A stretch of DNA of 43,653 bases, from positions 1 to 43,653 of IMG/VR virus record IMGVR_UViG_3300010400_000030; one strand, given 5' to 3'. This DNA is from a virus. This document shows positions 3,292 to 18,994 of the stretch, piece by piece; the stretch's first letter is position 1; every line of letters begins with the position of its first letter. A program made the translations under genes and the position numbers. The notes under the pieces were generated by a model that was not told the origin of the DNA, ran no database searches, and saw nothing but the letters and a program-made list of their open reading frames with translations.

Positions 3292-3483
3292 ATGGGACGC
3301 CGATTTATTGATGCGCGGTGGGTTCGTCAGTATCTCGACACGACGGATCTGCGCTATCAGCGGGAAGCGGCAGCGAAGGCGGCGCGGCCGACAGCGGAAC
3401 GGTGCCCGATCTGCCAGACACTCCTTGACGCGGCTGGCTGGTGTCCGACGCCGGGACACAACAAACCGGATGGATCGTTCTAA
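3292..3483 (+). CDS. Small zinc-ribbon protein
   Basis: A 63-residue protein, two bases after the previous stop and overlapping the next start (TAATG). CPIC at about 38-41 and CPTPGH at about 51-56 form a plausible four-ligand zinc site (C-x2-C, C, H). The N-terminus is basic and helical. No specific function can be named. Confidence 0.55.
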   Translation: MGRRFIDARWVRQYLDTTDLRYQREAAAKAARPTAERCPICQTLLDAAGWCPTPGHNKPDGSF

Positions 3484-4256
3484 TGCCGGACTACACCCCG
3501 CCCGCGTTCGACGCCCGCACGGCCGGCCCGAAGCCACGGCCGCACATTTTCGACAAGCGCGATACGAAGCTAAAGACCTGCGCGATCTGCGGTACACAAT
3601 GGGCGCGGCGTGGAATAAATACAACGTGTTCCCGAAAGTGTGGGTACGAGTTCCGCAAGCGCAAACTGCGCGACCCGAGAAAGTGCGTCCAGTGTGGAAC
3701 GGAATTTTGGCCTACGCGACAAAAGACTAGCGGATGGGAAAAACACTGTTCGCGCCGCTGCCTCAACGTGATGAGCGCGGCGGCGCGGGTTGTTGTTAAG
3801 TGTCTTCAGTGTGACAAGCGATTGCTTCGTGGTCGGGCCGTGACGAAACGGGTGCGCCATCATTTCTGCAGCCAAGAGTGCATGAAAATCTATCTGCGCG
3901 GCCCGAACAGCCCTCTCTATCGTGGAGAAAGCGATCCGAACCGTGGCGGTCAATGGCGGCGACTCTCTGAGGAGATCCGAAAGCGCGACGGTTACTGCTG
4001 CCAGCGGTGTAATCGCACACAAGCCGAGAACGGCCAGAAGCTCTCAGTCGATCACATTATTCCTTGGCGCGCGTTCACGGATAAGACGGCGGCGAATGCA
4101 CCGTCCAATCTCACTAGTTTGTGCCGTCGTTGCCACAGCATAAAAACGCATCTGTATGAACGCCTATGGCTCAAAGGCGACCGGATCGGTATGGAGCAGT
4201 ACCGTCGCGCCATCCAACTCCCGCCGCTCTTTGCGCACGTGGAGATTCCGGGTTGA
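3483..4256 (+). CDS. HNH endonuclease with multiple zinc fingers
   Basis: A 257-residue protein. Three zinc-knuckle-like Cys pairs come first: CAIC (33-36) with CSRKC, CVQC with CSRRC, and CLQC with CSQEC. A C-terminal HNH domain follows: CCQRC, then LSVDHIIPWRAF (about 185-196), then LCRRCHSIKT. The Asp-His pair and the final His supply the metal-binding ββα site. It resembles free-standing HNH enzymes of phages, used for DNA nicking or homing. It sits inside the early operon with a TAATG overlap, so it is co-translated with its neighbours rather than inserted as an island. Confidence 0.85.
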   Translation: MPDYTPPAFDARTAGPKPRPHIFDKRDTKLKTCAICGTQWARRGINTTCSRKCGYEFRKRKLRDPRKCVQCGTEFWPTRQKTSGWEKHCSRRCLNVMSAAARVVVKCLQCDKRLLRGRAVTKRVRHHFCSQECMKIYLRGPNSPLYRGESDPNRGGQWRRLSEEIRKRDGYCCQRCNRTQAENGQKLSVDHIIPWRAFTDKTAANAPSNLTSLCRRCHSIKTHLYERLWLKGDRIGMEQYRRAIQLPPLFAHVEIPG

Positions 4257-4534
4257 ACACCGCGAAGAAAGGCCGTCACGCCGAGCACCGCGCCCGCGCC
4301 ATTCTCGAAGCGGCCGGGTTCTGTGTGACGCGTGCGGCAGCCAGTAAAGGGCCGGCGGACCTGGTGGCGTGGGATACGACCTCGATCCGGTTCATCAGCG
4401 TGAAGTCTGGCACGAAGTACTTGAGTGCGATCGAGCGGGAAGCGTTGACGGTGATGGTGCGGCCGAGCAATTCGAGCATCGAAGTGTGGCGCTTTCCAGA
4501 TCGGTGTAGAGAACCGCTGATCGAACGGTTGTGA
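4253..4534 (+). CDS. PD-(D/E)XK nuclease, Holliday-junction-resolvase-like
   Basis: A 93-residue protein if started at the TTG (4253) that overlaps the HNH stop (TTGA); an upstream ATG at 4166 is possible but lies deep inside the HNH gene. The pattern matches archaeal Hjc-type resolvases: KKGRHAEHRARAILEAAGF with Glu11, SKGPADLVAW with Asp36, then FISVKSG with Lys51. The acidic residue normally in the E-x-K position is Ser here, so catalysis may use another acid or may be weak. Expected role: cutting branched DNA before packaging. Confidence 0.65.
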   Translation: MNTAKKGRHAEHRARAILEAAGFCVTRAAASKGPADLVAWDTTSIRFISVKSGTKYLSAIEREALTVMVRPSNSSIEVWRFPDRCREPLIERL

Positions 4535-4635
4535 TCTCGATGCAATGCTCAGTGTCCGCGGCGAACCCTTGGGCGACGTGTGGCAACGGATCGAGCCGGG
4601 CATGTTTTGGTGAGTAGCGTAGCGGGGATCGTGCG

Positions 4636-5370
4636 ATGCCATGGGTACGAATTGATGAAAACGCGATGGACCATCCGAAGTTCCTGGCGCTGACGGACGG
4701 GGCGTGGCGGCTCTGGTGTGAGGGGCAAGCCTACTGCCAGAAACATCTAACAGACGGGCAAATCGCGACGGCGGCGCTGAAGGGGTTCCGGTATTACTCG
4801 GCCGCGCGGGTGAAGATGCTCACGTCTGAACTCGTGCCAGGTAAAGGGCCGTGCTGGCATCAAGGCGTCAAAGGGATCGGGGTGCATCACTATCTCGACT
4901 GGAATGATTCGGCGGCCGAAGTGATCAAGGCGCGGGCGGATGCGAAGGATCGACAACGGCGACACCGTAACGGAGACCGTCACGTTGTGACAAACGACAA
5001 ACAAACACCGAACACCTCTAGTGGTGTGTGTGTGTCGGGATCTTCGGGCTCTGAAAAAGAAAAAGGTCCGGTTGAAATTCAACCGAGCGACAACCCTGAT
5101 TTTTCCGAACGCGCCGCACGCTTTCTCGATCGCTACCGGGAGGCGCACGTCAAATACCGGCTCGGCGCCCGCTACGTCGGCAAGCTCCACGTGGATTTTG
5201 CGGAATCACTGCAACTCGTTGCGGTGTATGACGATGAGCGCCTCGACAAACTCGCACAGGTCTGGTTGACGACGAATCACGACTTCGCCGAACACGGCAC
5301 GCGCTCAATACCAAAGTTCCGTTCGATGATTTCGTGGTGTGACGAGAAGCTCCGGGAGCATGGGTTATGA
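4636..5370 (+). CDS. Replication-initiator/replisome-organizer-like protein
   Basis: A 244-residue protein. The N-terminus (WVRIDENAMDHPKFLALTDG ... LWCEGQAYC) has the layout of the winged-helix domain in phage replisome organizers, where a short strand precedes paired helices. A low-complexity Ser/Thr/Lys linker follows (residues about 115-150), then a helical C-terminal domain (ERAARFLDRYREAHV ... IPKFRSMISWCDEKL). It lies between nuclease genes and the methyltransferases, where lambda O-type proteins usually occur. No helicase or loader partner is evident. Its stop overlaps the next ATG. Confidence 0.55.
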   Translation: MPWVRIDENAMDHPKFLALTDGAWRLWCEGQAYCQKHLTDGQIATAALKGFRYYSAARVKMLTSELVPGKGPCWHQGVKGIGVHHYLDWNDSAAEVIKARADAKDRQRRHRNGDRHVVTNDKQTPNTSSGVCVSGSSGSEKEKGPVEIQPSDNPDFSERAARFLDRYREAHVKYRLGARYVGKLHVDFAESLQLVAVYDDERLDKLAQVWLTTNHDFAEHGTRSIPKFRSMISWCDEKLREHGL

Positions 5371-5852
5371 GCGACGACCAGGACGAGACGATCGCGCCGC
5401 TGAACCCGCGCCGAGGCGACGACGCGGCCTCCGCGAAGGCGTCACGGACGGCTCGGAGTGCCTTCAAAAAAAACTCGTCGGCCTTCGTCCGCGCGATGCA
5501 ATCGGCGATGCGCGAGTACCTCGCGATGCGGGGCCAAGGGGTCGAGCGCGACGACGCGATCAGAGGGGTGGAACTGGTCCTGCGGGAGACTTGGCCAGCG
5601 AAGCCGACCAAGTTTCCGCCGTGCGACCTCTGCGGCGATACCGGGTGGTCCGAGCGGGTGTGTCAGGCGTACGCGCGGTGTCAGCGGGCGCTCTGTTCCG
5701 AGCGGGGCGACGGCTGGGAGCATCGGTACGTGATCCCCTGCTCGTGTCCGCGTGGCGATCGATTTCGGCCGCGGCCGAAGGGCGAACCCGAGGCGATTGC
5801 GGCGGCGGGGAAAGTCAAAAAACTGCCGGGGTTCTCGAAAGTCGGGAGGTGA
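5367..5852 (+). CDS. Hypothetical zinc-finger protein
   Basis: A 161-residue protein with an ATGA overlap to the preceding gene. The N-terminal 60 residues are Ala/Arg-rich and helical. The middle has CDLCGDTGW (about 88-96), a DnaJ-like zinc-knuckle sequence, followed by further Cys residues (VCQAYARCQRALC) and CSCP. Such proteins often follow the replication initiator in phage operons. Function unknown. Confidence 0.6.
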   Translation: MSDDQDETIAPLNPRRGDDAASAKASRTARSAFKKNSSAFVRAMQSAMREYLAMRGQGVERDDAIRGVELVLRETWPAKPTKFPPCDLCGDTGWSERVCQAYARCQRALCSERGDGWEHRYVIPCSCPRGDRFRPRPKGEPEAIAAAGKVKKLPGFSKVGR

Positions 5853-5853
5853 C

Positions 5854-6423
5854 ATGTCGGCGATCGAAACTATTTACAGCGGGTATCGGTTCCGCTCGCG
5901 GCTTGAAGCGCGGTGGGCGGTGTTCTTCGATCGGTTGGAATTGCGCTGGATTTACGAGCCCGAAGGATTTGAATGGGATGGCGTCGGGCGGTATCTGCCG
6001 GACTTCTTCCTCCCGAAAACCGTATCTCGGAATGAGCGGTCAGGCATAGGCGCGTACGTCGAAGTCAAGCCGGATGGGTACGTGATCACGCCGTACGATC
6101 ATGCCCGCTACGAGCGATTGGTAATCGAGACGAGGAAGCCGCTGATGCTCGTGCGCGGCCTGCCTGTGGTAGACGGCTGGGCCGACGAAGCACGCGACAT
6201 TGAGGAAGTCAGCGGGTTTGAATACGAGGGGAAAGTCGTAGCGGCGTGGGATAGTCCGATGCTGCTGATTCGCTGCCATGAGTGCCAAGCCACACGATTC
6301 GAGTACTCCGAAGGCAACTACATGGTCTGTCACAAGTGCTCGTCATTGGCAGACGATCGACATCCAGATTTCCTGTACGCGCTCAACGTCGCGAAACAAA
6401 CGAGATTTGAAGAGTACGCGTGA
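5854..6423 (+). CDS. PD-(D/E)XK-fold endonuclease-like protein
   Basis: A 189-residue protein; GGGAGG precedes the ATG. The catalytic pattern is complete: Glu18 in FRSRLEARW, Asp50 in RYLPDFFLP, and Glu70-x-Lys72 in YVEVKP. A C-terminal zinc ribbon (RCHEC, then VCHKC) follows. Phage proteins with this RSRLEARWA...YLPDF...EVK layout are widespread predicted nucleases, with unknown substrate. It sits directly upstream of the two DNA methyltransferases, so a restriction-like partnership is possible but not shown. Confidence 0.65.
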   Translation: MSAIETIYSGYRFRSRLEARWAVFFDRLELRWIYEPEGFEWDGVGRYLPDFFLPKTVSRNERSGIGAYVEVKPDGYVITPYDHARYERLVIETRKPLMLVRGLPVVDGWADEARDIEEVSGFEYEGKVVAAWDSPMLLIRCHECQATRFEYSEGNYMVCHKCSSLADDRHPDFLYALNVAKQTRFEEYA

Positions 6424-6438
6424 TCGTGGCATCCCCCA

Positions 6439-6459
6439 GAGGCCCCCACCGGATGAGCG
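6439..6459. repeat. 21-bp direct repeat, left copy
   Basis: A perfect 21-bp match to 7372-7392. This copy lies in the gap before the N4/N6 methyltransferase and contains an ATG that opens only a six-codon frame. The right copy carries the ribosome site and start codon of the C5 methyltransferase. The pair brackets the first methyltransferase gene. Confidence 0.85.
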
Positions 6460-6477
6460 GCAAAGGACGGTGAGTCG

Positions 6478-7368
6478 GTGAGCTTGATCCGAGCGGACGC
6501 GCGTGCCATCCCATTGGTGGAGGGGTGCGTCCAGTGCGTCGTGACGAGTCCGCCGTACTGGGGGTTACGCGACTATGGGCACGGCGATCAAATCGGCTTA
6601 GAAGCCACGCCAGAGGCTTACGTGGGCACGCTGGTGGCGGTCTTCGCTGAGGTGCGGCGGGTGCTCGCGGCTGACGGAACGGCTTGGCTTAATTTGGGGG
6701 ATTCTTACGCGGGTCACAATCTGCCCGGATGGCGGCCCGGCAATGAAACGAAAAACCACGGCGCGAGCAACAAAAACGGCGTCGGCTATGTCGCGGGGGC
6801 GAAGCCAAAGGATCTCATCGGCATTCCGTGGCGCGTGGCGTTCGCGCTCCAAGCGGACGGCTGGTACCTCCGCTCCGACATCATTTGGTCGAAGCCCAAT
6901 CCGATGCCGGAGAGCGTCACCGATCGGCCGACGAAAGCGCATGAGTACCTGTTCCTGCTGAGCAAGAGCGAGCGGTATCAGTACGACTCGGCGGCAATTA
7001 CAGAGAGAGGCGCCGGACGTGAACTGTTCGGCAATAGCCGAAGCAAGGGCTATTGTGAGCAGCGGCAGGACAACGAGCGACGTGATATGACCATCACAGA
7101 GACGCGCAACAAGCGCAGCGTCTGGACAATCCCCACGATGCCGTACGCAGGCGCGCACTTCGCCACGATGCCGGAAGCCTTGATCCTGCCGTGCATTCTC
7201 GCAGGCAGCAAGCCGGGCGATCTCGTGCTCGATCCGTTCGTGGGCTCGGGTACAGTCGGGGCTGTAGCGGAACGGCTCGGGCGGCGGTGGGTCGGAACGG
7301 ATCTGACCTATCAGCACTTGGCGAAGAAGCGCACACAACAGCGCGGACTGCGTGAGATACCGGTCTAA
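6478..7368 (+). CDS. Site-specific DNA methyltransferase (N4-cytosine/N6-adenine, beta class)
   Basis: A 296-residue protein with a GTG start. Motif IV TSPPYW is at residues 23-28, and motif I, DPFVGSGT, is near the C-terminus (about 250-257) followed by GRRWVGTDL. Catalytic motif before SAM motif is the beta-class order. TSPPYW is seen in N4-cytosine and in some N6-adenine enzymes, so the base is uncertain. There is no paired restriction gene, so it is probably an orphan phage methylase that protects DNA or alters regulation. The gene is bracketed by a 21-bp direct repeat, as if inserted or duplicated. Confidence 0.85.
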   Translation: MSLIRADARAIPLVEGCVQCVVTSPPYWGLRDYGHGDQIGLEATPEAYVGTLVAVFAEVRRVLAADGTAWLNLGDSYAGHNLPGWRPGNETKNHGASNKNGVGYVAGAKPKDLIGIPWRVAFALQADGWYLRSDIIWSKPNPMPESVTDRPTKAHEYLFLLSKSERYQYDSAAITERGAGRELFGNSRSKGYCEQRQDNERRDMTITETRNKRSVWTIPTMPYAGAHFATMPEALILPCILAGSKPGDLVLDPFVGSGTVGAVAERLGRRWVGTDLTYQHLAKKRTQQRGLREIPV

Positions 7369-17074: not shown

Positions 17075-17291
17075 ATGGCTCCGTCGTCCGAAACCCTGCA
17101 ATACGATGCGTTGCTGACGACAACGCTCCGGAACTACCGGCGCAAGCTCGAAGATAACATCTCGACCGCCAACGCCTTTCTCTTCTACCTGATGAAGATC
17201 GAAGGCGCCTACAAGGAGATCTCCGACCTCGGGGAGCGGATGCAGATGCCGCTCATGTACGAGTTGGGGAACGCCGACGCCTACAGCGGGT
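17075..17291 (+). CDS. Major capsid protein, exon 1
   Basis: It encodes residues 1-72 plus the first base of codon 73. The sequence (QYDALLTTTLRNYRRKLEDN, ANAFLFYLMKIEGAYKEI, MPLMYELGNADAYSG) is the start of a phage capsid family in which YSG is followed by Tyr-Asp and a TPAEG-like segment. Here the frame instead runs into the intron and would stop at 17317, giving an 80-residue product if unspliced. Joining T17291 to A18159 restores YSG-Y-DALDTTP and one 350-residue frame (217 + 836 nt = 351 codons). Confidence 0.85.
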
Positions 17292-18158
17292 TGAATCTAG
17301 CCCCTGTGGTCGGCTGACCGGGCAGCGTAGTACCGAGGCAAATCGACGTGCGTTACCTTCCACAGATTGCATCCACGGCACAGGGTCTGCGCGTTGGCTC
17401 GTGTGTGGGTGCCCCCATCGAAGATCGGGATGATGTGATCCATCTCCAGGTACTCGGTGGTGGCGCAGTACGCGCAGTTCGTCCCGGCCCATTCGCGCCG
17501 CTGTCGCACCGTGAACTGTTTGCGGTGTCGGCGCAGCTCGGGGGCTTTGGCGAATTTGTGCGCCGCGCCGCGTGGCAGGTTCGCCAGCATCTGCTCGCGA
17601 TGATCAGCCCAGAGCTGACGCGAGGCGGCGGCAATCCGCGCTTTGGCTTCGTCGGTATGACGATAGCCACGAGCGTGTTGATTGCCAGTCCCTCGGCCCT
17701 TGCGGGCACGCGCGATGCTGGCCTTTGTCGCTGTTGTGTGACGACGGCCCCAGAACGGATTGCCCGCCCCACTGGTCAGGACGCCCATGCAGGCCCGCGA
17801 GCATGTTTTGGACGCCCCGGCGCGAATCTGGGCGGGACTCCGGTAGAAGGCCGTTCCACAGACCGCACAGGCGAACGTCGATCCGAGCCTCACGTATTCA
17901 CGCGGCACGAAGCCTCCACAGCACACGGGGTGAATTCACGGGAACACTCCTACTCAAGTCCAGAGTATGAGTCAATCGTGAGCCAAGCGCCAGCGGAAAC
18001 GCCGGTGAAGGTGCAGAGACTAGGGACCGAGGCTACGGCCGGTCGCGGCTATGCCGGTAATGTCCCCACGAGCGCCCCGCTCGAAAGAGATGACATAGTC
18101 CGAGCTACTGGGCGACCAGTAGAAGCGTGGGTTAAAGTCCCGCGCGATAACAACACTG
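17292..18158 (+). ncRNA. Group I intron (IC3-like core) in the capsid gene
   Basis: The intron starts after a U (T17291) and ends in G (18158), as group I introns do. An internal guide GCCCCTG (17300-17306) pairs with the 5' exon end (GGGT, a bulged C, CAG), with a U-G pair at the splice site. Core elements: GAGCCAAGC (17980-17988), GTGCAGAGACTA (18011-18022) and GACATAGTCC (18092-18101), where GACTA/TAGTC form P7. A GAAA-capped stem lies at 17991-18006. P9 is a perfect 7-bp stem with a GCGA loop (18105-18122), and another stem follows. The core closely resembles the Azoarcus and cyanobacterial tRNA introns. Confidence 0.88.
17297..17926 (-). CDS. HNH endonuclease inside the intron, antisense
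   Basis: A 209-residue protein on the strand opposite the capsid gene. Modules: a zinc finger (CAVCGTAFYRSPAQ ... CSRAC), two NUMOD3-type repeats (NPFWGRRHTTATKASIARAR and GYRHTDEAKARIAAASR), then HNH (CAYC, LEMDHIIPIFDGG, LCRGCNLWK). The GTG at 17926 is the first possible start; a GTG at 17905, just after GGAGG, is also plausible (MPREYVRLG). It is the probable homing endonuclease that spreads the intron. Its stop lies only 5 bases inside the 5' splice site. Antisense orientation is unusual, since most intron-borne homing genes run with the host gene. Confidence 0.85.
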   Translation of the reverse strand: MCCGGFVPREYVRLGSTFACAVCGTAFYRSPAQIRAGASKTCSRACMGVLTSGAGNPFWGRRHTTATKASIARARKGRGTGNQHARGYRHTDEAKARIAAASRQLWADHREQMLANLPRGAAHKFAKAPELRRHRKQFTVRQRREWAGTNCAYCATTEYLEMDHIIPIFDGGTHTRANAQTLCRGCNLWKVTHVDLPRYYAARSADHRG

Positions 18159-18994
18159 ACGATGCGCTCGACACGACGCCCGCCGAAGGCCTGACCAATG
18201 CGTTCTGGCCGTGGCGGCAAGCCGCGGTCCCGATCGCGATCTCGGGTGAAGAGGAAGAAAAGAACAGCGGCGAAGCGAAGATCATCGACCTGCTGGAAGC
18301 GAAAACCACGCAAGCCGAACTCGGGATTCAGGAGTTTTTCAACAAGAAGCTTCTCCAGGGGGCGGGCGGGTCCGCGATTACGACCGCCTACGTCTCGCCG
18401 ATCAACGGCGCGGCGTTCCTCGATCCCTTGCCGCTCGTCGTGGCGTATGACCCGACGACCTCCACGGCCGTGGGGAACATCAACCAGTTGACGTACACCT
18501 GGTGGCGCAACCAGACGTTCAACTCCGTCAGCACCACCTACGCCGGGTTCCTGAAGGAACTCCGACGCCTGCGGAACAACTGCAAGAAGGGGCCGGGCGG
18601 GCCGCCCAATCTGATCCTGATCGATCAGAGCGTCGAGGAACTGTACGTCGCGGCCCTCACGGCACGGCATCAGAACCCGAGCTACGACAAGGCCGACATT
18701 CCGTTCGAGAACGTGCAGATGTTCGGCTCGACGGCGGTGTGGGACGAGTTCGTCCCCGACGTGCAGGCGGGCAGTGCGACCCAGAGCACGTCGAGCGGGA
18801 CGGCGTGGATGCTCAACACGAAGTTCTGGGGCATCAAGGTCAGCAAGAACCGGAACTTCACGACGACCGGCTTTATGAAGCCGCACGGGCAGGACGCGCG
18901 CACCGCGCACATTCTCTGGATGGGCGGCATTGGGTGCTCCAATCGGAGAAAGCAGGGGGTAATGGGGGGTATAGATTCGACGCTGACATCATAG
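18159..18994 (+). CDS. Major capsid protein, exon 2
   Basis: It encodes the remaining 278 residues of the 350-residue capsid protein. Landmarks: DALDTTPAEGLTNAFWPWRQ, AAVPIAISGEEEEKNSGEAK, IIDLLEAKTTQAELGIQEFF, LILIDQSVEELYVAAL and FENVQMFGSTAVWDEF. The open frame extends upstream into the intron (to 17348), but that part is not capsid-like and is intron sequence. The C-terminus ends SNRRKQGVMGGIDSTLTS. Hundreds of copies would form the head shell. Confidence 0.85.

Follow-up and report, generated by a model that had tools for sequence, protein, structure and literature searches.

The major capsid protein (MCP) gene gp13 of mycobacteriophage LittleE contains an intron of about 820 bp, the splicing of which was established by RT-PCR and by N-terminal sequence of the protein (Pope et al. 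2013, PMC3706429; JF937101). Its endonuclease, gp14, is encoded on the bottom strand and is related to I-CreI by the authors (PMC3706429). Homing genes lying opposite to the strand of the ribozyme and of the host gene are also found in myxomycete nuclear rDNA introns (I-DsqI, PMC9548176; I-DirII, PMC3073962), and in T4 the free-standing homing gene segD is antisense between capsid genes 23 and 24 (PMC2988022).

Here, we describe an intron-containing capsid gene in the viral record IMGVR_UViG_3300010400_000030, whose 43,653 nucleotides, analyzed at full length, are called the window below. As in LittleE, a group I intron is found in the MCP gene, the 5' exon ends with U, the intron ends with G and an endonuclease is encoded on the opposite strand. 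Judged by sequence, LittleE is the closest known case, with the same arrangement but a different element: the LittleE core is 5' of the endonuclease gene (core 4859-5062, endonuclease gene 5065-5598 in L214) whereas that of the window is 3' of it, the LittleE endonuclease combines an I-CreI-related LAGLIDADG domain with an HNH-type tail instead of NUMOD3/HNH, and both MCP family and insertion site differ. The LittleE core scores 15 bits with model R1 and 25 bits with model R2 (both presented below), versus 68.1 and 31.3 bits for the window. The T4 td and nrdB introns (group IA2) are similar to the window intron by their location in a phage protein gene, their P7 (GACTA/TAGTC) and a P7.1-type insertion between P7 and P3, but they have two hairpins (P7.1/P7.2), sense-strand homing genes and a J6/7 reading ACGACTA versus AGAGACTA in the window. 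The IC3 introns of Azoarcus and cyanobacterial tRNA genes share the AGCCAAGC and AGGTGYAGAGACTA boxes with the window intron but are devoid of P7.1, have another J3/4 and reside in a tRNA host. The myxomycete antisense genes differ from that of the window in encoding His-Cys box enzymes, in their rDNA host, in the IE core (I-DsqI) and in being expressed from Pol II promoters, and segD is a loose parallel.

The capsid gene is split at a conserved tyrosine codon

The capsid frame starting at 17075 meets a stop codon at 17317, and the remainder of the gene is in a different frame ending at 18994. The gene and its interruption are organized as follows.

17075..17291, plus strand: MCP exon 1, 72 codons and the first base of Tyr73 (PHROG 9953 positions 6-72; tblastn with L011, 1-80)
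17292..18158, plus strand: intron of 867 bp, 63% G+C, assigned to group I (RF00028, exon joining, homologues, P7.1-class model)
18159..18994, plus strand: MCP exon 2 (PHROG 9953 'major head protein', positions 71-326, E 5.5e-26)

Joining 17291 to 18159 restores Tyr73 (codon T+AC) and gives a protein of 350 aa. The joined-exon DNA, corresponding to the empty site, reads TACAGCGGGT directly followed by ACGATGCGCTC at the junction. Since the exons match positions 6-72 and 71-326 of the same PHROG family, nothing is lost or duplicated there. The predicted spliced product is an Mx8-like MCP of 350 aa, which aligns without gap through the YSG/YD junction with the proteins of Mx8, Mx9, Bradyrhizobium ppBjS10J-1, Stenotrophomonas BUCT555 and other phages, and positions Tyr70, Gly72 and Asp74 vary little or not at all in the alignment with the named phages.

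The junction is uninterrupted in nine MCP homologues from named phage records. As the spliced MCP used as a single-protein query gave no relative among viral contigs, an alignment-based search was needed, and all of the 80 viral-contig homologues kept from it (80/80) show one continuous match. Every capsid homologue fetched is intronless, including the nearest one (L011), which is only 45% identical. Tblastn of MCP homologues against the window retrieved these two exons only, so this record contains no second intact MCP copy. Neither a search of genome contigs nor a scan for the exact 5' junction gave a match, and a DNA-level query with the intron matched nothing in phages.

The intervening sequence contains a covarying group I core

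A local search with RF00028 aligned 17881-18122 to the full model (1-253) with 41 bits (E 8.5e-9), under the gathering score of 50, and in an Rfam scan of the whole window no family reaches its gathering score. However, a score below 50 with RF00028 is not telling, because the established T4 nrdB and LittleE MCP introns score lower still in the same kind of search (35.7 and 30.7 bits, respectively). The following elements were assigned.

17281..17310, plus strand: P1, 5' exon CUACAG-C-GGGU paired with intron GCCC-CUGUGG, U17291-G17300 wobble at the 5' splice site (fold and sequence)
17923..18122, plus strand: catalytic core P3-P9 (RF00028, P7.1-class model, covariation)
17926-17931/18074-18079, plus strand: P3
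17936-17940/17977-17981, plus strand: P4
18018-18022/18096-18100, plus strand: P7, GACTA/TAGTC
18023..18066, plus strand: P7.1 extension between P7 and P3, GGGAC 18023-18027 / GTCCC 18062-18066 (fold)
18080-18082/18087-18089, plus strand: P8
18105-18122, plus strand: P9, CTACTGG-GCGA-CCAGTAG, with a GNRA loop
18125..18158, plus strand: P9.1 hairpin, GCGTGG 18125-18130 / CCGCGC 18140-18145, then the terminal omega-G 18158 (sequence)

The conserved elements GAGCCAAGC and GTGCAGAGACTA are at 17980 and 18011, the 5' exon terminates with U17291 and the intron with G18158. By eye, P10 amounts to about 3 bp and is weak, and no P2 helix could be assigned in the intron. In the alignment of the window intron with 31 related viral introns, 89.6% of the helix cells are paired versus 68.9% in shuffled alignments, the helices contain 214 two-sided changes versus 68.5, and the covariation score is 0.520 versus 0.145, with none of 500 shuffles as high. 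From these comparisons, 17292-18158 can be regarded as confirmed to be a real group I intron, located in the sole MCP gene of the record.

The preliminary description of this DNA had proposed a group I intron in the capsid gene, and this part of its reading stands. P7, the conserved boxes and the GNRA-capped P9 sit where it placed them, as do the 5' splice site after U17291, with its U-G wobble in P1, and the 3' terminal G18158. The junction it proposed restores the tyrosine and the 350-aa frame, and the capsid host is borne out by the match of both exons to PHROG 9953 and by the gapless junction with intronless homologues. Two of the checks it suggested point the same way: RF00028 scores the window below its gathering score but above the two established introns, and the intervening sequence is absent from the 9 named-phage and 80 viral-contig homologues.

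The intron carries an intact HNH gene on the opposite strand

An HNH endonuclease gene, overlooked in the preliminary description, takes up about 70% of the intron in antisense orientation. Simple motif expressions for homing genes were too weak, and Pfam and PHROG scans of the minus strand were used instead.

17297..17926, minus strand: antisense homing endonuclease ORF, 209 aa from GTG 17926 or 203 aa from the likelier GTG 17908
17913..17917, minus strand: GGAGG, ribosome-binding-like site 4 nt before GTG 17908 (consensus only)
17693..17749, minus strand: NUMOD3 DNA-binding motif (Pfam PF07460, E 1.6e-5)
17363..17476, minus strand: HNH nuclease domain, zinc ribbon C..C / C..CN..K, catalytic DHI intact (PF01844, E 6.8e-10; PHROG 1271)

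The ORF also matches HNH_5 in Pfam, and PHROG 1271 leads the HNH families that it matches. It takes up the whole interval from P1 to P3, its stop codon falling within P1. A search for close relatives of the protein gave none, with weak matches and two short ones only. As no close relative of the intron or of its endonuclease gene was found, no intron-minus allele from the same phage is at hand. A promoter scan of the minus strand gave no sigma-70-like site, a negative that carries little weight here.

On the sense strand, the frame of exon 2 extends upstream without a stop across most of the intron (17348-18994), and its intron part matches no family in Pfam or PHROG. Translation of this frame through the intron was considered and rejected because of this lack of family match and because no MCP homologue carries it. 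The frame is plausibly a shadow of the G+C-rich antisense gene.

Capsid introns of S-EIV1-like cyanophages carry a comparable gene

Contigs related to the Synechococcus cyanophage S-EIV1 (e.g., L097 and L122) have a P7.1-class intron after codon 4 of the MCP gene (GTG TTY ATT GAY). The host gene was identified as MCP by its match to PHROG 1357 (E 2.8e-16) and is 86% identical to that of S-EIV1; in the isolate itself (KJ410740, near 60859) the MCP is intronless. These introns share with the window intron a P7.1-class core, an MCP host and an antisense HNH gene between P1 and P3. They differ from it by the endonuclease, of about 190 aa with HNH_3 and a helix-turn-helix (PHROG 59), and by the insertion site, which is codon 4/5 in an MCP unrelated to that of the window. 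We found no description of S-EIV1-like MCP introns in openly licensed papers.

The region upstream of the MCP match was classified in 80 S-EIV1-like loci (L216-L295). The site is empty in 32 of them, while at least 21 contain full introns of about 827 nt with the antisense HNH motif, nine more are of full length but miss the core pattern, and three harbor mini-introns of about 280 nt without HNH gene; the remaining loci are truncated or unclassified. Between 11 distinct copies of the antisense gene, 2442 changes fall on the third antisense codon position versus 899 and 392 on the two others. The dN/dS-like value is 0.09, and when this DNA is read in sense, its frames contain 4 to 15 stops each. 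Judged by these substitutions, purifying selection acts on the S-EIV1-like antisense HNH gene. Thus, a homing gene can be maintained in functional form when encoded antisense within a capsid intron.

Other features of these capsid genes were noticed. The MCP gene of S-EIV1 (KJ410740.1 60859-62007, L215; frame from GTG 60859) is apparently misannotated, its frame being covered by the minus-strand hypothetical AHV82227.1 and a shortened plus-strand AHV82228.1. In L151 (IMGVR_UViG_3300020414_002119), RF00028 matches six times with scores exceeding its gathering score within 2.2 kb (3637-5845), and the S-EIV1-like MCP is distributed over about six downstream pieces, which are predicted exons. In the 7329-bp viral contig L209, an S-EIV1-like MCP gene (3446-6664) has about five predicted intron cores. 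No other phage capsid gene known to us has this many introns.

Proposed splicing and homing of the intron

We consider it very probable that a mobile, P7.1-bearing (IA-like) group I intron with an antisense HNH/NUMOD3 homing gene splits the MCP gene at the conserved Tyr codon. From the features described above, we infer splicing in vivo, nuclease activity and homing, together with a reason for the orientation of the gene. GTP-initiated self-splicing follows from established group I biochemistry. In the folded sense transcript, P1 would present the 5' splice site as U-G, and exogenous guanosine bound in P7 would attack after U17291. The freed exon would then attack after G18158, and ligation of the exons would give an intact mRNA for the 350-aa capsid protein. 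In co-infecting phages, the HNH/NUMOD3 enzyme would introduce a cut or a nick into capsid alleles lacking the intron, and repair would copy the intron into these alleles. The antisense placement keeps the endonuclease frame off the heavily made capsid mRNA and therefore requires a separate minus-strand transcript, from which the endonuclease would be made; the capsid mRNA would be spared a translated internal gene.

The antisense frame is open for all 209 aa, its HNH and zinc-ribbon residues are intact, it has an RBS-like GGAGG and comparable antisense genes are under purifying selection. These observations make it rather doubtful that the element, although built on a real core, is immobile, with an HNH gene that is unexpressed or inactive and an intron that has become fixed. 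Such an immobile state would be in line with the lack of a promoter-like site on the minus strand and of known polymorphic relatives, and the mini-introns of the S-EIV1-like MCP locus imply that loss of the homing gene does happen.

The ribozyme is of the P7.1-bearing type

P7.1 and P7.2 mark subgroup IA and are not known from IC3. Both extensions serve in the definition of group I classes (PMC3984707). At least 120 viral contigs matched the box AGCCAAGC...AGGTGYAGAGACTA when it was used as a search pattern, and they form two main classes. Among the matches listed, the P7 strands of the first class are about 28-45 nt apart, with tRNA 3' halves following in many cases (IC3 type), and those of the second class are about 55-100 nt apart because a hairpin follows P7. 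In the window intron, 73 nt separate the P7 strands and include the GGGAC/GTCCC hairpin. Of the five positions that close P7.1, four or more pair in 31 of 35 P7.1-class sequences, GC, CG, AU and UA all occurring, and four P7.1 base pairs covary among relatives. At J3/4, nearly all P7.1-class introns have the signature TGAAYTC versus CAAATTCGG in the tRNA class, and the window has TGAATTC. Two models were built without the window: the P7.1-class model (R1) gives it 68.1 bits (E 9e-13), and the tRNA-class IC3 model (R2), from which short-P7 introns with no nearby or no clear tRNA host were left out (L106, L118, L128 and L196), gives 31.3 bits. Two relatives (L154 and L199) possess a similar core with a two-hairpin P7.1/P7.2 like that of T4 td and nrdB, and the T4 region itself is barely detected by R1, with 13 bits only. 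A FastTree phylogeny of the short cores mixes the classes, is too weak for either side and was not used. Based on P7.1, the TGAATTC of J3/4 and the model scores, we assign the intron to a P7.1-bearing, IA-like phage type, having the P7.1 that marks subgroup IA.

The preliminary description had likened the core to the IC3 introns of Azoarcus and cyanobacterial tRNA genes and had suggested that a tRNA-type ribozyme moved into the capsid gene. This part of its reading is not supported and seems to us very improbable: the AGCCAAGC and AGGTGYAGAGACTA boxes do occur in tRNA introns, and R2 still recognizes the window with 31 bits, but the box is common to tRNA introns and many phage protein-gene introns and thus does not discriminate between them, whereas P7.1, the 73-nt P7 spacing, the near-universal TGAATTC of the P7.1 class and the protein-gene host all depart from IC3, R1 outscores R2 and a tRNA search of the window gave none. 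Equally implausible is a broken gene or an assembly artefact, in which the MCP would be disrupted or exon 2 translated alone from the sense frame 17348-18994, since this frame does stay open across most of the intron but exon 1 is conserved and the sole copy, the joined exons align gap-free, the core covaries and the intronic sense frame is without family match and plausibly the shadow mentioned above.

Orientation and recurrence of capsid introns with antisense homing genes

As a group I intron, the probably mobile, IA-like element of the window is nothing unusual. It is the arrangement, a split capsid gene with a homing gene on the opposite strand, that has been little noticed: it is known from one studied mycobacteriophage and is found here to recur in unrelated environmental phages. 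At least three unrelated capsid introns (window, S-EIV1-like and LittleE) have different opposite-strand endonucleases, orientation having been sampled and not surveyed. As the window endonuclease is of a different HNH type from the S-EIV1-like one, the arrangement seems to have more than one origin.

A rule according to which homing genes of capsid introns are always antisense was considered and rejected, since in L112 a sense HNH ORF adjoins the core of a capsid-gene intron. In this contig, a Phage_capsid_4 / Mu gpT-like gene has a P7.1-class core near 6141, with the HNH ORF (5327-5983, plus strand) just upstream, and L112 is a possible counterexample to antisense placement. Separately, in L115 a P7.1-class core near 6488 is situated in a phage tRNA array, with an antisense Vsr/HNH-like ORF (5581-6336, minus strand) upstream.

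Tentatively, group I introns residing in late capsid genes with high expression could have arrived at the antisense homing gene by convergence. A separate transcript would let the capsid mRNA fold and splice free of translating ribosomes, and antisense transcription might switch the element between homing and splicing. MCP genes split by such introns are easily overlooked in annotation. The S-EIV1-like MCP locus, where empty, full and endonuclease-less alleles are found together, would offer a natural population for tests of the homing cycle. The window, LittleE and S-EIV1-like introns provide independent cases for asking how a homing gene may be expressed in antisense without harm to the most abundant late transcript.
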